Positions 39,507-48,937 of a stretch of DNA of 55,282 nt are shown here, in pieces; the first letter of the stretch is position 1; every line of letters starts with the position of its first letter. Source of the DNA: Methanobacteriota archaeon (lineage in GTDB: Archaea > Thermoplasmatota > Poseidoniia > Poseidoniales > Thalassarchaeaceae); contig JAAZXW010000019.1 of NCBI GenBank assembly GCA_014239955.1, positions 117,298 through 172,579 on the forward strand, given 5' to 3'. A program made the translations under genes and the position numbers. The notes below the pieces were generated by a model. The model did not search any database and was not told the DNA's origin. It worked only from the letters and a program-made list of their open reading frames with translations.

Positions 39507-40748
39507 ATGGTGGGTTTACGGGGACTTATGGGAGATGTGCCCTCAAGTGACTCATCTGATTCTAGCACTATGATAAGAGTTTTCTCAAATCCCTCTACCC
39601 TGCCACACCTAATTTCCCTAGTGGTATTTTCTGGGTTTCTTTACATTGCTATGAAAATAGACTTATTTGGTTCCGGGGCTCAGGGTGGCGTCATATTTCT
39701 GTCACTTTCAATATCTTACTTCTTTGCTGCATTGATTGCCCCTAGTCGTTTTGGAGAATGGATATTTAATTCGGGACACAACGAAACAGGTATACTAAAC
39801 AGAAAATTCTGGATATTTGGATTTGCAAGAATATTGCCAGTTTTGGTGGTTGCCGGCGTAGTTTGGATTCTGTCGAACTTTGCTTTAGGGAACGATAACC
39901 TGGACAAAGTGAAGCTATTTCTAGCGATGTTGTTTATTGCGATGTCTGTTTTCCAAGGAATTTCGTTGACATTCGGTTGGGTCGTTTATGCTAGGAAGGT
40001 GCAGAAGGCCCCGAGAAATAGCAAGACTGGCGGATTAATTTCTCTCGTCCGATCGGGAATAGCGGTTATTGTTTTCACGCCTCTCGTTTGGTGGTTCGGA
40101 TACGGAACAGAAGACCCCCGTAACGCAAAGTTGTCTGTAAATATTGTTTGGCTTCTTTTCCTCGTCATTATCGCATTATTGGGCACTGCATTAGACCGTT
40201 ATACGAAGAGAGCGAGGGAGAGGCAAGGTGCCGATGGGGTTGCTTTGGATATGGCATTTTTCCTCATATTCATTACAGCGTGTTGGCACCTTCTTGGTGC
40301 ATTGAGAAGGAGCCCACTTACGACTGAGCAATCCACCGGAGGGATGCTTATTGAAGAGGGGTGTCTTATGTCAATCTCGATTCTTCTGGCCGTATGGTCA
40401 ATGTCCAACAAGGGAAAAAAGAGTGGTTGGCGAATCTTCCAGGGGCAATCGGCAATCTTCTGGGGGATTGGTTTCGGGTTCACTTATGCCGGTAGTATTG
40501 CCTCACTGACTGCACTATCTGAGGGTAGCCTTCTGACGACCACTGCTATCGGACATGCAATTACTGCTTTGGTCATGATGGCAATATTGCCAGTATCGAT
40601 TTCATGGGTCGGAATACCAGATACTGAGGAAGAAATACCCCCCCAAGTGCTCCAATCCACCACAGTTGAAGCTCAGAACATAGGAAATCAAATTGATACC
40701 GAAAGGCGACTCAATGAGGATGAAGATGTAGTCGAACTATTGGATTAG
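39507..40748 (+). CDS. Multi-pass membrane protein of unknown function
   Basis: A 413-residue protein I do not recognise, with roughly eight to ten hydrophobic segments, for example LISLVVFSGFLYIAMKI (about 36-52), VIFLSLSISYFFAALIA, ILPVLVVAGVVWILSNFAL, LFLAMLFIAMSVFQGISLTFG, SGIAVIVFTPLVWWFG, IVWLLFLVIIALLGTAL and two or three more. The N-terminal 30 residues and the C-terminal 45 residues are polar and acidic (ending DEDVVELLD). There are no conserved transporter motifs I can name. Its stop overlaps the convergent FtsZ-like gene by four bases. Confidence 0.6.
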   Translation: MVGLRGLMGDVPSSDSSDSSTMIRVFSNPSTLPHLISLVVFSGFLYIAMKIDLFGSGAQGGVIFLSLSISYFFAALIAPSRFGEWIFNSGHNETGILNRKFWIFGFARILPVLVVAGVVWILSNFALGNDNLDKVKLFLAMLFIAMSVFQGISLTFGWVVYARKVQKAPRNSKTGGLISLVRSGIAVIVFTPLVWWFGYGTEDPRNAKLSVNIVWLLFLVIIALLGTALDRYTKRARERQGADGVALDMAFFLIFITACWHLLGALRRSPLTTEQSTGGMLIEEGCLMSISILLAVWSMSNKGKKSGWRIFQGQSAIFWGIGFGFTYAGSIASLTALSEGSLLTTTAIGHAITALVMMAILPVSISWVGIPDTEEEIPPQVLQSTTVEAQNIGNQIDTERRLNEDEDVVELLD

Positions 40749-41650
40749 AGACCACTCACTACAGCCACTAAACGAAGTCTTCCAGCCATATCTTCACTCG
40801 CTCTGGCGCCGAGGATTACCTGGCAATCATTGTCTAGAGTCGAAACAAATGCCTCAGAGACCCTGTTGAGAGTTCCAAGAGTCATGTCTGGCCCCCCCTC
40901 AACTTGGATCAGGCAACCCTTGGCGCCGTCAACTGAAATCTCGGACAAGGGAGAGTTTCGAGCCATTCTTACGACCTCGTCAGGATCATCTGTAGTGCCG
41001 TTTCCAACAATTAGGGTCGCATTTCCCGGCCTTCCCACGACAGTCCTGAGATCCATCAGATCAAGATTCATCTTTCCAACTCTGGCTAGAGTCGTAACAA
41101 GCCCCTCAATTAGCTCCCCAATCCATTCTGATCCTAGTTTCCAGTCAGAGTCACGATGACGGGCCTGCCATGCAAGTCTCTCGAGGCTAACGCGGATGCA
41201 CAAGTCAGAGTTATTCTCTATAGGGGGGAGTGCTTTCTCTGCAATAGCGCATCTGAGTGGTTGTTCTACAAACGGCATTCCGACTATGCTAATTACCAAG
41301 CTTCCCGCCTCTCTCGATCTAGCGGCGATTTCTGCAGAGGCGCCAGATCCTGTGCCTCCGCCCAATGCAGTGAGGAGAATCACAAGTTCGGATTTCTTTA
41401 GTAGTCCCGAGATGTTTGCAATACCTTCGTTTAGCCGGTGAGCAGCGAGGTTTGGCAAAGCGGCAGCACCCCTCGCACTGCCACTTGCATCCAAGTGGAG
41501 GCAGTGGGCTTCGTGATCGGAAGTAAAGGACGACTCGTCGGCATCGACCATCAGTAGTTCAGAGAGTTGCTGACATTTGTCGTGGGCCCCTCCGGACCAC
41601 TGGCAACCTATTCCTCCGACTCCGACTATCAGAATCGAGCCTTGCTCCAT
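40745..41650 (-). CDS. Divergent FtsZ/tubulin-family GTPase
   Basis: A 301-residue tubulin-superfamily protein. The N-terminal strand-loop ILIVGVGGIGCQW corresponds to the FtsZ VIGVGGGG start. The tubulin signature GGGTGSG is at about residues 97-103. The T7 catalytic loop NLDLMD is at about 195-200 followed by LRTVVG, matching FtsZ NxDxxD. So GTP binding and hydrolysis residues appear intact. It is shorter than canonical FtsZ (about 350-400), ends soon after the C-terminal beta domain and lacks the conserved C-terminal peptide that binds partners. The overall sequence is far from FtsZ1, FtsZ2 or CetZ. The ATG at 41650 (MEQGSILIVG) is preferred over a TTG at 41662. A cytoskeletal role other than division is possible. 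Confidence 0.82.
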   Translation of the reverse strand: MEQGSILIVGVGGIGCQWSGGAHDKCQQLSELLMVDADESSFTSDHEAHCLHLDASGSARGAAALPNLAAHRLNEGIANISGLLKKSELVILLTALGGGTGSGASAEIAARSREAGSLVISIVGMPFVEQPLRCAIAEKALPPIENNSDLCIRVSLERLAWQARHRDSDWKLGSEWIGELIEGLVTTLARVGKMNLDLMDLRTVVGRPGNATLIVGNGTTDDPDEVVRMARNSPLSEISVDGAKGCLIQVEGGPDMTLGTLNRVSEAFVSTLDNDCQVILGARASEDMAGRLRLVAVVSGL

Positions 41651-41685
41651 GTTGCCCCGCAAACGACTGACTAGATTATTCTGTT

Positions 41686-42068: not shown

Positions 42069-42132
42069 GTGGAACGTTAATATCCCCGTTTTTTTTCGGG
42101 TGCAATATTAGCAGATGCTAGGTGAACGAAAG

Positions 42133-42936
42133 ATGGCATCTCGACAAAAGATATTGGCCCTAATACTGGTCACGGTTTTCGTTGCTGGGTCGGGTGAGGC
42201 ATTGCACTCAGGAATCGGTGGAAACGCTAACGGACAGGGGGATGTTTCCCTGGCTGGTTGCACTTGTCACGCCGAAGAGCCAGACAATTCCGTAACCGTA
42301 ATCTTGGATGGCATGCCTTTCCACTATGCCCCGGATACGGCATATGAAATGAAATTACAGCTAATAGGTGGCCCAGATGCAAATCTGGAATCATATACTG
42401 GAGGGTTCTCAATGAGAGTGAGTTTGGGATCTTTGGGCCCGTCCGAGGGTTTCGAGTCCCTAGTCCAGAATTGGGAAGATGATGCGTCGACCCTCACTCA
42501 CACCGATACCGGTTCAAGTACCGCGGACAGGTCGTGGATGTTCAAATGGACTAGCCCGGCTGAGGGTTCGGGTACGGTAGACTTCACAATTGCTGGAAAT
42601 TCAGTAAATGGAGATATGGCTCCCTCCAGCCTAGACCGCTGGAACCGCCTTACGACCAGTGTTGACGAGGGCGAGGACAATGGCCGAACAAAGACGGTTT
42701 TCTCGGGCAATGGGGACATCACCCCCCCAGCTCCTATGGAAGGTCACACAGACCTCCACCACATGGGGGCAAAGCTTCTGGCCCACTGGCTAGGACTTCT
42801 GGGATTCGGAGCAGTTATGCTAGTCATCTTGTTCTGCGGCCTCTTCCTAAGATATGGATTCTCCACGCATTACAAGGGAAGAAGTAATCTGCTTAGGCTA
42901 AGAATAAAGCATCTAAGGAGGGGTGATCAACTATGA
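42133..42936 (+). CDS. Exported membrane-anchored CxCH protein (Reeler/anchor-V-like)
   Basis: A 267-residue protein. A signal peptide (KILALILVTVFVAGSG) is followed by a beta-rich domain and a C-terminal helix (LGLLGFGAVMLVILFCGLFL) with a basic cytoplasmic end. Just after the signal lies AGCTCHAEEPDNSVTV. Related exported domains carry C-x2-C-H heme motifs at this point, but here the spacing is C-x-C-H, so heme c attachment is uncertain; the cysteines might bind metal or form a disulfide. The ATG at 42133 has AGGTGA seven bases upstream and is preferred to the ATG at 42115. It is the first gene of the Rieske/cytochrome b run and overlaps the next gene by four bases, so a role in electron transfer outside the membrane is likely. 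Confidence 0.7.
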   Translation: MASRQKILALILVTVFVAGSGEALHSGIGGNANGQGDVSLAGCTCHAEEPDNSVTVILDGMPFHYAPDTAYEMKLQLIGGPDANLESYTGGFSMRVSLGSLGPSEGFESLVQNWEDDASTLTHTDTGSSTADRSWMFKWTSPAEGSGTVDFTIAGNSVNGDMAPSSLDRWNRLTTSVDEGEDNGRTKTVFSGNGDITPPAPMEGHTDLHHMGAKLLAHWLGLLGFGAVMLVILFCGLFLRYGFSTHYKGRSNLLRLRIKHLRRGDQL

Positions 42937-43382
42937 AAGACGACATCGTGATGAGGCTTCTTCGACAAGTAAAGTCTGGAGAAGTGAGCGTCGAAGACGC
43001 TAGGGTGGCTCTAGAAGATGTTTCACTGACCGAAGAGTCATTTGCTGCAGCTGTTGATCACGGAGTTTTCAATGAGGTTAATCCCGGTACTATCGTCAGA
43101 GCCAGTCTCGCTCCTTCTGGAGATTCATGGCTAATCATTCTAGTTGGGCTATGGGGGATAATGTGGACTCTCTATTGGGCTGGTGCCTTGGCTTACGGCC
43201 TGTTCAACAACTGGGATCAGCAGTTGCTCTCATTCAACCTTGCAATGACTATGTTAACTCTCATCATCATGGGTATAGTGTACTTGAAATATGTTCTACC
43301 TGATGTGGTAATTGTCAAGCATCGCAGGAACAAGTACATCACAAGCCATGATACAAACTCTTGGAAAAAATACGAGGTATGA
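42933..43382 (+). CDS. Small two-helix membrane protein of the Rieske/cytochrome b cluster
   Basis: A 149-residue protein coupled to both neighbours by ATGA overlaps. The first 65 residues are soluble and helical (VMRLLRQVKSGEVSVEDARVAL then a second helix), resembling a short regulatory or assembly domain. Two membrane helices follow: WLIILVGLWGIMWTLYWAGALAYGL (about 70-92; the first half is WLIILVGLWGIMWTLY) and LAMTMLTLIIMGIVYLKYVL (about 102-121), with a basic C-terminal end on the cytoplasmic side. There is no heme or Fe-S motif. Tight coupling suggests an accessory subunit of the complex. I do not know the family. Confidence 0.65.
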   Translation: MKDDIVMRLLRQVKSGEVSVEDARVALEDVSLTEESFAAAVDHGVFNEVNPGTIVRASLAPSGDSWLIILVGLWGIMWTLYWAGALAYGLFNNWDQQLLSFNLAMTMLTLIIMGIVYLKYVLPDVVIVKHRRNKYITSHDTNSWKKYEV

Positions 43383-44233
43383 GTATGGCAAGGAAATTCA
43401 AATTGCGTCCAGTTGGCTCACAGAAGGATGGGGAGCATGAGAGGAGCGGTGCCATAGATAGGAGGGAGTTCATGAGGCTGTCATTCAACACGGCTGCTGG
43501 CTTGATCACAACGGCTTCCTTGGGGAGCGTTGGGTTTGCCTCATTCCTAATGGGGCAGGAAGGAAGTAGCACTTCGGACTCATCTATCAAGTTCTACGTC
43601 CCGAAGGGGTCAGACGTCTGGTACAACAACATGGACAAACAACCAATGACGATTCAGGCATTCATGGACGAATCTGCGAATTCCAACACAGGAATGGCGG
43701 GAGCTGCCGGACTATGGTCTGGATTACCGATCATTGCAACCTACGTCCCTCACGAGGAGAATAAGAACAAGCCATTAGAAGCCGACTCCCCGCGATTCCA
43801 GATGATGGACGGATACACTTCAGGGGGCGCTTATGTTGGATCGGGATACGAGATTGAGGAAAAGGAAGAGTACGCGTCGCTTAACATTCATGACAACATG
43901 ATCATCGTGTTTGCAAGATGCCCGCACCTCTGCTGCATCCCCGGTTGGCAACTCGTCAACAATGACTTCACGGCTGATAGTTGGCTACCCGGAGGGACTG
44001 ACTCAAGCGGAAACAAATCTTTCTGCATTTGCCACTCTAGCAGGTACGACCACACGGTGATAGAGAAGAACACGGCGAGGAACAGGTCCAATGGGAAAGA
44101 GTTTGATTTCATTGGGGTCAAGAAGACTGGTGGGCCGGCACCCTATGGGATGCCATTGATTCCATTCTCGGTGAATGGCGGAACCATCGAGGCGCTTCCG
44201 GACTTCATGGACTGGTACACATTCTGCGGGTAG
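43379..44233 (+). CDS. Rieske 2Fe-2S protein with Tat signal
   Basis: A 284-residue Rieske subunit of a cytochrome bc-type complex. The twin-arginine signal-anchor DRREFMRLSF leads into a hydrophobic helix (about residues 40-58). The cluster motifs are CPHLCC (about 181-186) and CICHSSRYD (about 216-224). These are equivalent to the CTHLGC and CPCHGSxYD boxes, with two Cys and two His ligands plus the two disulfide cysteines. The spacing between boxes (about 30 residues) and the N-terminal region (about 110 residues before the cluster domain) are larger than in bacterial Rieske proteins. The start at 43379 is set by an ATGA overlap with the preceding gene. It would take electrons from quinol at the cytochrome b Qo site. 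Confidence 0.93.
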   Translation: MSMARKFKLRPVGSQKDGEHERSGAIDRREFMRLSFNTAAGLITTASLGSVGFASFLMGQEGSSTSDSSIKFYVPKGSDVWYNNMDKQPMTIQAFMDESANSNTGMAGAAGLWSGLPIIATYVPHEENKNKPLEADSPRFQMMDGYTSGGAYVGSGYEIEEKEEYASLNIHDNMIIVFARCPHLCCIPGWQLVNNDFTADSWLPGGTDSSGNKSFCICHSSRYDHTVIEKNTARNRSNGKEFDFIGVKKTGGPAPYGMPLIPFSVNGGTIEALPDFMDWYTFCG

Positions 44234-44242
44234 GTGAAAATA

Positions 44243-45115
44243 ATGATACAATTCTGGTTCCTATGGATTTTCATCGCGGTCGTCGTTGTTATCGTCGCAT
44301 TCACCCTGAGGAGAGAGCGTGACGACCTCCCAAGGAAAGACATCCTGAGAGCGGTGGAGACGAATGCGGGCAGCATGGGCCTAGCTGAGAAGCTGTTCCT
44401 CTGGGCTTTCTCATGGCTAGACACCAGATTCAGAATCCAGGACTACTGGGGGATGAGCAGGGACTCTTACTACAGCATGCACAGGCAAATGCCACTCACT
44501 CATGCCGAGAAGTACAAGCTCAGGATAATCTGGTACTGGTACCCACTCTACTGCCTGGGTGGAATTTCTTTCATCGCATTCATAATCCTCGTCATCACTG
44601 GTACGATTCTAGGATTCTACTACGTTCCGGGCGGGGACCTGAATTCGGACCCGACGCCTGCCTATGCATCGATGGAGTTCATTATGCTAGAGTTGCCTTT
44701 CGGGTATATCATCAGATCGATACATCACTGGGGAACACACTTCTTCGTTGCTGCTGTCTTCCTCCACATGTGTAGGGTCTACTTCACAGGGGCTTACAGG
44801 AACCCGAGAGAGCTTAACTGGCTTATTGGGGTGGCATTGATGTTCTTCTCGATTTTCTTCGGTTACTCAGGATACCTGCTCCCTTGGGACAGCCTAGCGT
44901 TCGGTGCCGCAACCATTGGGATAAACATGGCAATGGCTACCCCGCTGGTTGGGGAGTGGGTCGCAAGTGCAATGTTCGGTGGGACCACACTTACTGGACA
45001 GACTGTGGTGAGGATGTACTTCCTCCACGTATTCGTGCTGCCGCTAATCGTGACGGTACTCATACTGACTCATCTCTTCATCGTCTGGGTACAGGGGATT
45101 GCGGAGCCGCACTGA
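44243..45115 (+). CDS. Cytochrome b, N-terminal (b6-type) subunit
   Basis: A 290-residue diheme cytochrome b6-like protein. The heme histidines are in SIHHW (H161) and VFLHMCR (H175), 14 apart, and in YFLHVFV (H262) and LILTHLF (H277), 15 apart; the 15-residue second spacing is the b6-type arrangement. The GYSGYLLPWD segment lies in the conserved Qo region. An extra N-terminal membrane helix (FWFLWIFIAVVVVIVAF) and about 65 soluble residues precede the normal core, which is unusual. The ATG at 44243 with GGTGA just upstream is preferred to the GTG at 44234. The C-terminal half of cytochrome b is encoded by the next gene, nine bases on. Confidence 0.93.
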   Translation: MIQFWFLWIFIAVVVVIVAFTLRRERDDLPRKDILRAVETNAGSMGLAEKLFLWAFSWLDTRFRIQDYWGMSRDSYYSMHRQMPLTHAEKYKLRIIWYWYPLYCLGGISFIAFIILVITGTILGFYYVPGGDLNSDPTPAYASMEFIMLELPFGYIIRSIHHWGTHFFVAAVFLHMCRVYFTGAYRNPRELNWLIGVALMFFSIFFGYSGYLLPWDSLAFGAATIGINMAMATPLVGEWVASAMFGGTTLTGQTVVRMYFLHVFVLPLIVTVLILTHLFIVWVQGIAEPH

Positions 45116-45124
45116 GGTGAATCA

Positions 45125-47938
45125 ATGGGGATGATGGAGAGATTTGGCAGGATCGCTGACACATATATCAGCGAGAAGGAGCAGTTGCTCGGAGCGGAAG
45201 AAGAGAGGAAGAGAGTTTTCACTGGGCATGCATTCTGGCCCACTGAAGTCCTCAGAGACACCATTATCTTCGCAGCCATAGTAATGGTAATCGCATTCTA
45301 CTCGTGGATCATCCCGCCTCCATTGCACAATGCCGCAGACCCCTACGCACAGGCTGGTTTCGTTTTCCCGGACTGGTACGTCCTGTTCTCATACGGATAC
45401 CTGAGATGGGGGGAATACCTACCTCAATTCGCCATTCCCGCTGGACCAATAGGTGCATTCTTCGGACAGCCAGTTATCTCCTGGAATGCGGGCGTCTGGG
45501 GAGCGATGATCACAGGATTACCTGTCGGGATCCTAGCGCTGCCACCATTCATCATTGGGAAGAGAGAGAAGAGGGGTGTCGAGGACCCGTGGTTCGCTAC
45601 GGCAGGAGCCGTGTATCTGGCACATGTCTGGTTCATCTCAGTCTTCTCGATCAATATCTTCCTCGAGATGTATGCGAAGAATCGTACCGACCATTGTTGG
45701 TCGAGCGCTCATGGTGGGTTCAATTGCGGCACTCAAGCGCCGTGGACTGCTGACGTCTTCAATGCGGTCCCTTGGGTTCTCACTGGAGTCTTCGTCTTCA
45801 CGCTACTCTATTTCTCCATTAGGAAATTCATGGTCGGACCCATGGGGTCACGACTAACGCCAATTCTCGGTAGGCAGGTGGCTGTTGGGTCCTTGGTCAC
45901 CACCTTACTTCTGTGTACTGTGACGTGGCCGGTATACGAGAATGGTTTCTGGAACCAGCGAGGACTGGGGACGATGGGTTTCTGGGAGTACCAGTATGAC
46001 GCAAAGCTAGTCGAGCTGGACGGGATTAGAGGGCAACCCGGAGATACCCTGATCCACACTGAAAAGGGCCCGATGTGGGAGGAGTGGGAGGATGATTGTC
46101 TGCCATACGAACAGACTAGCTCTCTGGCCATCTGGGAATCCATGGAAGAGGGCACTGAACATACTGACTGGTGCGTCCTCCCGACAATGCATTGGGTAAA
46201 ATGGGGTAATTTCCAACCGACTCGGGGCAAGATTCTGGACTTCAGTGGGGCCAATGGGCATGCTGATACACAGACCTCTAGGAATATAGGCGCCAATGAC
46301 GTCATCTACCAAGGACTCCAAGACGGCTCCCCGGTCGAGATCTCCGAGTCAATACACTTCGAAGTCGAGGATCTGGGAGTCCCCAGCGTGCCAACTGACG
46401 TCGGCTGCAACTTCAGGACTACCGTGCGTGGTGCAGGAATACACACCCAGAGCCTAGTGCTGACCGATGAAGCAGGAGAGACCCTCTGGATGACCAGCGG
46501 TTCGTCCTGTGACTCAGGGACCATATATCTCGACTCTGCTGCTTCATACACAGTGACGTTCACCACCACCTCCGAGGGGGTGAACGATAGCGTCACGATG
46601 ATCTCTGACTTCTCTGCCGTCGCATACCAGCCACTTCTGCTCGCCGAAGACGGTACTGCCTTAATCAGGTCCGAAGTAAGCCACAGTGACGAGGAATTGT
46701 CTGCCATGTCAATGGCGAATCCAACGTTCAAAAAGAACCCCAAGAGCCTAGATGCGAAGTTAATCTACTCCATGTTCATTCCTTGCTTAGGAGTGGGTGC
46801 ACTCGTTTTCGTGATGCTAAGGAGCATGGCTCGCGGCTACGAGTGGGAGATGAACAAGTGCTACGGATGCGACCTATGCGATGATGCATGCCCTGTCAGG
46901 CTTTTCAATGCAGGTGACAAGCTCAACATAATCTACAACACTTGGAACAACGAAGACGACGGAGTGCCGCTCTACTCCTGCCTGACGTGCACAGCCTGCA
47001 CGAATGCCTGCCCACAGCTGGTGGACTATGACTCATACATCGACATCAGGAGGAACCTCGTAGTGGGAGGGCCTCCCGCGACGGAGATCCCCCATACCGT
47101 CCTGCAAGCAGTACTTGCTGCAGAGGCCGAGGAGGATGCGGATGACTCATTCATCCCAGTGGAGGACTACCCTCTAGACTCCAGCATTGGCTACTATCCA
47201 GGCTGCGTCGACTACATCGACCAGGAGATGGTGTTCAGCCATGTGAACAAGGGGAGCATGGACCTGGGTGATACAACGACATCGGCATTCACGATTTTCG
47301 AGGAGATGGGAGAGGAAGTCACCTACCTCGGCAGGGACTTCCTGAAGTGCTGCGGTCACGATCAAAAGTGGCAGGGGATGAATGAGGTGTTCGAGAAGCT
47401 CAAGACGTACAACCAGAAGAAGCTGGGGGAGAGTGGCATCGAGACACTCGTGACATCGTGCGCAGAGTGCTTCAGGACATTCGCCCTAGACTACGAGCTA
47501 GACGACATGAAGGTCATGCACACCACTGAGTTCCTAATCGAGAAGGGCTTCGACATGGATCTCAAGACCAATGACGAGGTCACCGTGACCTACCACGACC
47601 CATGCCGGCTCGGGAGGCAGATGAACATCTACGACGAGCCCCGTGACCTCGTTGGCTCCGTAGATGGAGTCAAACTCGTTGAAATGGAACACACGGGCGA
47701 GGACGCGCTATGCTGTGGCGTCTCCAGCATGATGTCCTGTAACGAGAACAGCAGGTCACTCAGGGTCCAGAGGTTCGACGAGGTTAGAGCGACGGGGGCG
47801 GACATAATGCTCACGTCGTGCCCGAAGTGCGTGGCTCACTTCGAGTGCCTGAAGTTCGAGGGGGACCCACGTCACGACTTCGAGATTCTAGACGTAGTCA
47901 GCTTCCTTGCCAGGCAGATAGAAGAGTCGCGGAACTAG
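45125..47938 (+). CDS. Fusion: cytochrome b C-terminal half, exported domain and HdrD-like Fe-S module
   Basis: A 937-residue fusion. Residues about 43-270 are the subunit IV-like half of cytochrome b, with several membrane helices and the Qo motif PDWY at 82-85 (FPDWYVLFSYGYLRW). Residues about 270-545 form an exported, Cys- and Trp-containing, beta-rich domain I do not recognise. One helix (about 546-566) returns to the cytoplasm. Two 4Fe-4S motifs follow (C579/582/585/589 and C619/622/625/629), then two CCG domains: C694, CC742-743, C779/782 and C827, CC863-864, C899/902. This last module matches HdrD/GlpC-type oxidoreductases acting on disulfides or small acids. Positive residues in SIRKFMVGPMGSR and RSMARGYEW agree with a cytoplasmic Fe-S module. 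An SD-like GAGGTGA precedes the ATG. Confidence 0.92.
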   Translation: MGMMERFGRIADTYISEKEQLLGAEEERKRVFTGHAFWPTEVLRDTIIFAAIVMVIAFYSWIIPPPLHNAADPYAQAGFVFPDWYVLFSYGYLRWGEYLPQFAIPAGPIGAFFGQPVISWNAGVWGAMITGLPVGILALPPFIIGKREKRGVEDPWFATAGAVYLAHVWFISVFSINIFLEMYAKNRTDHCWSSAHGGFNCGTQAPWTADVFNAVPWVLTGVFVFTLLYFSIRKFMVGPMGSRLTPILGRQVAVGSLVTTLLLCTVTWPVYENGFWNQRGLGTMGFWEYQYDAKLVELDGIRGQPGDTLIHTEKGPMWEEWEDDCLPYEQTSSLAIWESMEEGTEHTDWCVLPTMHWVKWGNFQPTRGKILDFSGANGHADTQTSRNIGANDVIYQGLQDGSPVEISESIHFEVEDLGVPSVPTDVGCNFRTTVRGAGIHTQSLVLTDEAGETLWMTSGSSCDSGTIYLDSAASYTVTFTTTSEGVNDSVTMISDFSAVAYQPLLLAEDGTALIRSEVSHSDEELSAMSMANPTFKKNPKSLDAKLIYSMFIPCLGVGALVFVMLRSMARGYEWEMNKCYGCDLCDDACPVRLFNAGDKLNIIYNTWNNEDDGVPLYSCLTCTACTNACPQLVDYDSYIDIRRNLVVGGPPATEIPHTVLQAVLAAEAEEDADDSFIPVEDYPLDSSIGYYPGCVDYIDQEMVFSHVNKGSMDLGDTTTSAFTIFEEMGEEVTYLGRDFLKCCGHDQKWQGMNEVFEKLKTYNQKKLGESGIETLVTSCAECFRTFALDYELDDMKVMHTTEFLIEKGFDMDLKTNDEVTVTYHDPCRLGRQMNIYDEPRDLVGSVDGVKLVEMEHTGEDALCCGVSSMMSCNENSRSLRVQRFDEVRATGADIMLTSCPKCVAHFECLKFEGDPRHDFEILDVVSFLARQIEESRN

Positions 47939-47979
47939 GGAAAGCAATACCAATTACGAGGGCGACGAGACAGAGAAAG

Positions 47980-48246
47980 TCACCGTATGAATGCGAACAA
48001 TGCTGAGAACGATGACAGGGCCGTATTTATCACCACGCCCCATACGGTTGCCTTGGCGAACCTGTAGTCCTCGTAACCCAGTGCCACCAAGTAGAGGAAG
48101 AATCCGATTAGACCACCACATGCCAGTGAAATCCAAGCTGCTGGAACGCTCAGGTAGATTGCCATCACGAGCCATATGGAACCCCCTTGCAGGAGTCCCA
48201 GCCACACCATGGGATCTGCCCACCAGTTTGATTCGGGCACGCCCAT
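47980..48246 (-). CDS. Small three-helix membrane protein
   Basis: An 88-residue protein, MGVPESNWWADPMVW at the start, with about three hydrophobic segments (WLGLLQGGSIWLVMAIYLS, AAWISLACGGLIGFFLYLVAL and VWGVVINTALSSFSALFAF). It is encoded on the opposite strand to the respiratory cluster, between the fusion gene and the dicluster ferredoxin. The ATG at 48246 is preferred over an upstream start at 48384 because the extra residues lie across the start of the ferredoxin gene. I do not know the family; it could be an unrelated membrane protein. Confidence 0.55.
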   Translation of the reverse strand: MGVPESNWWADPMVWLGLLQGGSIWLVMAIYLSVPAAWISLACGGLIGFFLYLVALGYEDYRFAKATVWGVVINTALSSFSALFAFIR

Positions 48247-48321
48247 GAAACACGGGAAGGGAGAACACCAATCAAACTCACTATGATAAGGGTCGGCTCT
48301 ATGGATTAGAAAGGAGATATC

Positions 48322-48654
48322 ATGACCAAGGTTGGTGACGTCCTGAAGAGGAGGGCTGTGGAGCAGTCCAGAATCAGGGTGCAACTGAACTCCGTGAGGG
48401 CTGAGGAGGAGGTCTTGCTGAAGGGCGGAGAGGACACGGTTGCTTGGGTCAAGGAGGAGCTATGCATTGGATGTGACCAATGCACCATAGTGTGCGAAGA
48501 CGATGCAATTGAGCTCTATGACACCCCTCTAGCCAGCCCCATCATGGATGTGGAGGTCAACAGGAAGGCAAGGATACTGAGAGACCCATGCACGGGTTGC
48601 AAAATTTGCGTCCTCGCTTGCCCGACCAATGCCATCATCATGATCGACAGGTGA
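48322..48654 (+). CDS. Dicluster 4Fe-4S ferredoxin-like protein
   Basis: A 110-residue protein. The first 40 residues are a charged helical extension (VGDVLKRRAVEQSRIRVQL). Two 4Fe-4S motifs follow: CIGCDQCTIVCEDDAI and CTGCKICVLACPTNAI, about 30 residues apart. In the first, the usual Pro after the fourth Cys is Glu. An SD AAGGAG lies five bases before the ATG at 48322. It is downstream of the fusion gene on the same strand and is a reasonable electron partner for its cytoplasmic HdrD-like module, although the intervening opposite-strand gene means it may have its own promoter. Confidence 0.85.
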   Translation: MTKVGDVLKRRAVEQSRIRVQLNSVRAEEEVLLKGGEDTVAWVKEELCIGCDQCTIVCEDDAIELYDTPLASPIMDVEVNRKARILRDPCTGCKICVLACPTNAIIMIDR

Positions 48655-48658
48655 GAAA

Positions 48659-48937
48659 ATGAAGGATGACGATCCAGTGAGATTCGGGGCGGAGTTCGGG
48701 CCTCATAGAACCAAGAGGGCAAGTGGAGTTTCTCTTTCTACGTTCAAGACGCTAGTGTGGGTTTCCAACCTAGGTGGACTAATCCTATTCGCAATAGGAA
48801 TGGAGTTGATGATCAGAGGATCTTTCTGGTTTGGCATCGCTTGTATAGTGACTGGAGTCGCAATAGCCCTATTCCCATCAAACTACGAAATCGTTGGCAT
48901 GGAAGAAACGGAAATAGAGGAATGGGCGAAGAAATAA
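48659..48937 (+). CDS. Small two-helix membrane protein
   Basis: A 92-residue protein with a soluble, basic N-terminus (about 30 residues), two hydrophobic helices (WVSNLGGLILFAIGMELMI and FWFGIACIVTGVAIALF) and an acidic C-terminus. It starts four bases after the ferredoxin stop and its end overlaps the methyltransferase gene by 16 bases, so the three are probably one transcript. There is no metal or catalytic motif. It may anchor or regulate the ferredoxin or the bc-type complex; this is inference from position. Confidence 0.6.
   Translation: MKDDDPVRFGAEFGPHRTKRASGVSLSTFKTLVWVSNLGGLILFAIGMELMIRGSFWFGIACIVTGVAIALFPSNYEIVGMEETEIEEWAKK

Follow-up and report, generated by a model that had tools for sequence, protein, structure and literature searches.

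The window analysed here is a stretch of 55,282 nucleotides (G000:C4:117298-172579) from a 1.28 Mb metagenome-assembled genome (MAG) of the Poseidoniales, or Marine Group II (MGII), archaea, with relatives named Candidatus Poseidoniales / Thalassarchaeaceae. It encodes a Rieske/cytochrome b complex in which the chain corresponding to subunit IV continues into an exported domain and then into an Fe-S module with two [4Fe-4S] motifs and two CCG domains. A sequence-only reading of the same DNA had described this gene set and the domain make-up of the fusion protein, here called P5, and had proposed a quinone-linked bifurcating or confurcating enzyme. All genes that it had listed are present (42115-48654), and the coordinates and motifs of P5 were confirmed, giving the following features:

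42115 to 42936, plus strand: P1, an exported, membrane-anchored protein (choice-of-anchor V, NF041895, 83.7 bits) with a CTCH motif and a C-terminal transmembrane (TM) helix at residues 226-244
42933 to 43382, plus strand: P2, a two-TM subunit resembling DUF7318 (PF24002, 26.2 bits, just under the cut-off of 27)
43361 to 44233, plus strand: P3, a Tat-exported Rieske [2Fe-2S] protein (TIGR01416, E 2e-8) with the twin arginines of RREF and the cluster motifs CPHLCC and CICH
44234 to 45115, plus strand: P4, a b6-type diheme cytochrome (PF00033, 141.8 bits) with four ligand histidines in two pairs
44552 to 44554, plus strand: Cys107 of P4 (YCLGG), the heme ci/cn cysteine position, aligned with YCLGG of 7R0W and 1VF5
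45125 to 47938, plus strand: P5, a 937-residue fusion of subunit IV, an exported domain, two [4Fe-4S] motifs and two CCG domains
45260 to 45934, plus strand: subunit-IV-like membrane part of P5, with TM helices at residues 46-64, 124-144, 160-180, 214-236 and 247-270 by hydropathy
45368 to 45379, plus strand: PDWY motif of the Qo site (residues 82-85), identical in 15/15 chains aligned, whether fused, split or stand-alone
45935 to 46759, plus strand: exported domain of P5, mostly beta-sandwich and fast-evolving (AlphaFold2 pLDDT 87.5)
46760 to 46816, plus strand: last TM helix of P5 (residues 546-564) by hydropathy, with which the chain returns to the cytoplasm
46859 to 47017, plus strand: two cubane [4Fe-4S] motifs (C579/582/585/589 and C620/623/626/630; PF13187/PF13183)
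47204 to 47470, plus strand: CCG domain 1 (C694, C742-C743 and C779/C782 of CAEC; PF02754), aligned to HdrB and EtfD
47603 to 47830, plus strand: CCG domain 2 (C827, C863-C864 and C899/C902 of CPKC; PF02754)
48322 to 48654, plus strand: P6, a 2x[4Fe-4S] (8Fe) ferredoxin (PF14697, 44 bits) and candidate redox partner
48659 to 48937, plus strand: P7, a small membrane protein that accompanies P6 in nearly all loci

The complex is of the b6 type, with a four-helix diheme cytochrome b with two histidine pairs, a separate subunit IV with a PxWY motif, the Rieske motifs and a cysteine at the heme ci/cn position. P4, which has an additional N-terminal TM helix, finds its best relatives in the PDB among b6 chains (7R0W and 1VF5), and alignment to such solved chains is the basis on which the heme-ci position was assigned, with a row of spinach b6 serving as a ruler only. 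The complex shares with cytochrome b6f (1VF5, 7R0W) the split into b6 and subunit IV, the YCLGG heme-cn cysteine and the Rieske protein, whereas b6f lacks an Fe-S module on its subunit IV and carries PEWY in place of PDWY, and cytochrome f is absent here. The Rieske motifs (C.H..C ... C.CH) are intact in 63/63 loci, and P2 is conserved in the operon across all classes. The CTCH of P1 may be an unusual heme-c site; C[LT]CH is kept in 59/59 homologous loci, and the motif possibly marks a non-standard covalent heme or metal site in an analogue of cytochrome f/c1. Elsewhere it occurs as CSCH/CNCH in a sister family in the class of the window (f3), as CTCH/CSCH in families in which subunit IV stands alone, and as CTSCH in one such locus (L132).

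Hydropathy predicts six hydrophobic segments in P5, such that, with the N-terminus inside, the PDWY motif lies outside and the Arg/Lys-rich loops inside, residues 271-545 (about 275) are outside, and the Fe-S part is inside. This helix count and the Arg/Lys residues on the inner side support a cytoplasmic Fe-S module, as had been proposed from the sequence, which follows immediately on the last subunit-IV helix. The first [4Fe-4S] cysteine, C579, follows the last helix of P5 by 15 residues, and both [4Fe-4S] motifs are invariant in fused and split relatives. The CCG assignment is well above threshold (PF02754, 79.9 bits versus a cut-off of 20.6), and in alignment with HdrB both CCG domains retain the full HdrB-type set of five cysteines; by this pattern their clusters could be either wire or catalytic. 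For the exported domain, only weak, partial matches to GOLD-domain-like beta-sandwiches were obtained, and its identification as a cupredoxin or a cytochrome is unsupported.

With HdrD and HdrBC (5ODC, 8RVU) the module has in common that a pair of 4Fe-4S motifs precedes two CCG domains of five cysteines each; HdrD differs in that its partner is HdrE, a different cytochrome b, and its substrate CoM-S-S-CoB, while the membrane partner of P5 is cytochrome b6. P5 scores above no Hdr model cut-off (HdrC, 18.5 bits versus 160), the nearest model being TfrB (107.9 versus 385). EtfD/FadF (9OJN, PMC13083937) is likewise a membrane chain, in which two 4Fe-4S motifs and two CCG domains form a wire from the electron-transferring flavoprotein on the cytosolic side to menaquinone. 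EtfD is described as having a linear [3Fe-4S] cluster, in which Thr539 replaces a cysteine, and a noncubane cluster with His583 as its cap, neither of them catalytic (PMC13083937), whereas P5 has Cys743 and Glu781 at these places; in the membrane EtfD has a domain of five helices with a b heme, and P5 has subunit IV. Membership of P5 in the EtfD/FadF family was ruled out by its CC and CAEC in CCG domain 1, compared with CT and CPHC there in EtfD, and by its lack of a five-helix b-heme domain.

Of the 21 nearest genomes 18 have the fusion, and those that lack it are three MAGs of 53-80% completeness; it occurs in both Poseidoniales families. The named-genome set comprises 79 Poseidoniales loci, all of which have the fusion, and one locus of family f22 from another class. 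Across these 80 loci gene order and motifs are identical, and the Fe-S motifs are intact with one constant CCG spacing pattern (80/80). Median identity to the window is 80% for the Fe-S module, 78% for b6, 63% for the subunit-IV part and 32% for the exported domain, so that the Fe-S module ranks first in conservation within the operon; Cys occupies the heme-ci position in 69/69 of the fused loci fetched. In a scan of all genomes, the best 80 of at least 493 matches to the fusion came from Poseidoniales and one other Thermoplasmata genome, and among 86 plasmid records none covered 80% of the query. These distribution data refer to Thermoplasmatota, phyla beyond which were not properly searched. 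Because nearly every Poseidoniales genome searched gave just one match to a b6-type (Rieske-type) cytochrome b, the P1-P5 complex is apparently the only complex III of these archaea. Most MGII have been reported to encode cytochrome b and Rieske proteins without a canonical bc1 complex, their complex III being called "MGII specific", along with an unexplained orphan "RnfB" (PMC6336850). The operon identifies this complex III, with a cytoplasmic Fe-S module and a ferredoxin as neighbour.

Other Thermoplasmatota carry variants of the operon. In families f22 (L021) and f25 (L022), both from another class, subunit IV is joined directly to the Fe-S module without an exported domain, and a single chain scores above the Pfam cut-offs for Cytochrom_B_C, Fer4 and CCG. 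In these two families it is the b6 genes (L021:10089-11975, minus strand; L022:413-3610) that are fused to N-terminal exported Big_5 Ig-like domains; which subunit of the complex bears an exported beta-domain seems to vary with the lineage. In f3, subunit IV and the two 4Fe-4S motifs form one gene and the CCG pair the next, followed by a four-cluster polyferredoxin whose end resembles P6. Eight other Thermoplasmatota families or genomes have the order P1-P2-Rieske-b6-IV with a stand-alone subunit IV and no Fe-S module. The end of stand-alone subunit IV, GYExxLN-x-x-Y, aligns with GYExxMNKCYxC of the fused chains, and therefore the module was attached at, or lost from, one exact place. In a phylogeny, the modules all group together (support 99/97), apart from 13 CCG paralogs of Thermoplasmatota, which shows a single origin of the Fe-S/CCG module.

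The stand-alone operons (L132-L140) resemble that of the window in gene order, their subunit IV being 26-30% identical; they differ in having no Fe-S module, no P6-like ferredoxin in any of them and mostly no ci cysteine, with Ala, Ser or Thr at that position in 7/8 complexes. A P6-like ferredoxin is encoded near the module in all three groups in which this could be tested (Poseidoniales, f3 and f22). P6 lies near the fusion in 73 loci and is missing in only two with more than 3.5 kb of downstream sequence. Within f3, genus g15 has both Ser at the ci position and CS for CC in CCG domain 1, whereas genus g14 keeps both cysteines. We regard the associations of ferredoxin and ci cysteine with the module as suggestive, with few evolutionary changes behind them. 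In Rieske genes of the stand-alone families (L133-L139, e.g. L135:5749-6663), GPAPxGxPxxP precedes the cluster motifs, which it follows in the window, and their Rieske domain looks circularly permuted.

P6 scores 41.2 bits against the rnfB model (cut-off 68.7, not reached) and belongs to the top rnfB matches in these genomes, ranking first in G014 but not in the genome of the window (G000); P6 may plausibly be the orphan "RnfB" of the MGII literature. In the window, a minus-strand gene for a small membrane protein (47983-48384) lies between P5 and P6 in convergent orientation. This gene is real, being 54-82% conserved in the closest relatives, to which it is confined, and because it intervenes P6 is probably not co-transcribed with the fusion in this genome.

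As to the physiological setting, 2-oxoacid:ferredoxin oxidoreductase and the 49K subunit of complex I were each found in 13/13 genomes tested, NuoF of the NADH module in 0/9 Poseidoniia tested, and COX1 in 14/15 genomes, missing only in the incomplete G000. Haloarchaea also lack NuoEFG, and their ferredoxin reoxidation has been stated to be unresolved (PMC8305020). Halocyanin is transcribed at a high level in Thalassarchaeaceae (PMC9723583), and heme cn of b6f has been proposed as an entry point of ferredoxin electrons (PMC9342900).

Taken together, we consider it likely that the module is a conduit to the Qi side of the complex, in either direction. In the mechanism that we propose, menaquinol, the assumed quinone, would be oxidised at Qo, one electron passing via the Rieske protein to a copper protein and the oxidase, while the second would reach heme ci and the Qi quinone by way of bL and bH. 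Because the first [4Fe-4S] motif directly follows the cytoplasmic end of the last helix, the module could act as a wire of two cubanes followed by two CCG clusters that links bH/ci/Qi to a partner in the cytoplasm, for which the 8Fe ferredoxin P6 encoded nearby is the most likely candidate. If electrons flow inward, 2-oxoacid:ferredoxin oxidoreductase would reduce ferredoxin, whose low-potential electrons would enter at Qi, where a Qo electron and a ferredoxin electron would jointly reduce the quinone (confurcation). The route of the electrons, the role of ferredoxin as partner and the direction of flow are inferred, and sequence cannot decide between inward and outward flow. Inward flow is slightly favoured in that it would be downhill and fits the ferredoxin supply, the ci cysteine and the b6f heme-cn proposal; this direction, with ferredoxin as the donor, is nevertheless held tentatively, at somewhat less than even confidence. 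In favour of the conduit are the conservation of the module, its single clade, the nearby ferredoxin, the ci cysteine, the joint cysteine loss in g15 and the absence of NuoF.

Several observations weigh against it. The ci-Cys association comprises few evolutionary events, the stand-alone complexes without the cysteine forming one clade, while the stand-alone L132 keeps the ci cysteine and g15 has the module but not the cysteine. Ferredoxin may already be oxidised by complex I in its form without NuoEFG, a simple wire needs no full HdrB-type cysteine set, and P6 is parted from P5 in the window by the minus-strand gene. Finally, a joint AlphaFold2 model of b6 and the fusion, for which the b6 stop was read through in frame (TGA=W) into the fusion with 64 alignment rows, had a mean pLDDT of 60, near 50 in the cytochrome part, and gives no distances; Foldseek returned only QcrB/b6 and LutA likeness for it.

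The sequence-only reading suggested that the complex may feed its low-potential electron outward, or the reverse, instead of recycling it at Qi. Of this proposal, the conserved fusion of single origin stands, with complete CCG cysteines and a module predicted to be cytoplasmic, but "instead of" is over-stated because the complex has the only Rieske-type cytochrome b found in nearly every Poseidoniales genome searched and must also serve as ordinary complex III. Outward bifurcation, in which the low-potential electron from Qo would pass via bL, bH, ci and the Fe-S/CCG clusters to a cytoplasmic acceptor (NAD(P), a disulfide or a moderate-potential ferredoxin) at the expense of the high-potential electron that travels over Rieske to O2, appears possible though rather unlikely. 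It has been proposed for anammox b6-type complexes with an Fe-S-linked cytoplasmic NAD(P) reductase (PMC12954380), it would suit two CCG domains with all five HdrB-type cysteines and no counterpart of Thr539 or His583 of EtfD (PMC13083937), and near-complete relatives have the COX1 oxidase. However, the operon encodes no candidate acceptor enzyme, no NAD(P) reductase gene was found among the genes of the 42-49 kb region, the hosts are non-methanogens not known to make CoM/CoB, and electrons drained from the sole complex III would lower the proton yield. A special form of it, an aerobic, O2-driven bifurcating quinol:disulfide (thiol) oxidoreductase with noncubane Hdr-type clusters doing disulfide/thiol chemistry in the cytoplasm, is improbable; such an enzyme of abundant marine archaea would unite the chemistry of heterodisulfide reductases with quinone bifurcation.

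We also judge it unlikely that the CCG domains take electrons from a soluble flavoprotein dehydrogenase, of the electron-transferring flavoprotein (ETF), lactate or glycolate type, and pass them to quinone at Qi. CCG modules of LutA, GlpC and LdhH do serve flavoprotein dehydrogenases. So does that of EtfD (PMC13083937), which is also the best solved relative of the module (9OJN), and the Foldseek search matched LutA as well. Against this, the same genome already has a separate EtfD-type protein of 668 residues with the CPHC signature (L028), and P5 combines CAEC and complete CCG domains with no adjoining flavoprotein gene; given that separate protein and the full HdrB cysteine set of P5, P5 is therefore no obvious ETF dehydrogenase. 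The L028 gene (L028:4871-6874, minus strand) is a candidate EtfD/FadF-type ETF dehydrogenase and a second CCG protein in Poseidoniales.

A regulatory or structural module for redox sensing, assembly or docking, which would transfer no electrons to the b hemes, would accord with the separate CCG gene in f3, by which the covalent link is not essential, and with the loss of a CCG domain 1 cysteine in one genus, but all Fe-S ligands are kept in the 80 loci and the module is conserved at least as well as the cytochrome, which speaks for a redox function and makes this reading improbable. That the fusion is an artefact of assembly, or that adjacent genes were joined by chance, is ruled out for practical purposes: nothing was found in favour of it beyond the window itself being a MAG, and dozens of independent assemblies from two families and another class, including contigs not labelled MAG, have the fused frame open.

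The sequence-only reading knew of no described enzyme with exactly this order. Literature searches found no paper on a cytochrome b-HdrD fusion or on a covalent HdrD-type module on subunit IV, but the general idea has an anammox precedent (PMC12954380). The anammox complexes Kuste4569-4574 and Kustd1480-1485 likewise have a b6-like four-helix cytochrome b with heme cN, a subunit IV with extra helices and a cytoplasmic reductase reached via Fe-S clusters, for which bifurcation was proposed. On the cytoplasmic side they have an FAD-containing NAD(P) reductase as a separate subunit, whereas P5 carries its HdrD/CCG module covalently, and their p-side is a multiheme cytochrome c, as opposed to the Rieske and CxCH proteins of aerobic archaea in Poseidoniales. 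A Rieske/cytochrome b complex with a cytoplasmic reductase is thus a known, unproven idea, of which the covalent module appears to be a new form.

The position of the module on the cytoplasmic face suggests electron exchange with a cytoplasmic partner such as ferredoxin, something that ordinary complex III does not do. Two questions become testable, namely ferredoxin reoxidation after 2-oxoacid oxidation in aerobic archaea with a complex I without NuoEFG, and whether a cytoplasmic partner can exchange electrons with the Qi side of a Rieske/cytochrome b complex, a matter of long debate for anammox and for cyclic electron flow through b6f. The module is universal in a very abundant surface-ocean lineage. 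Directly upstream of the operon lies a minus-strand gene for a divergent FtsZ/tubulin-family protein (40745-41662).

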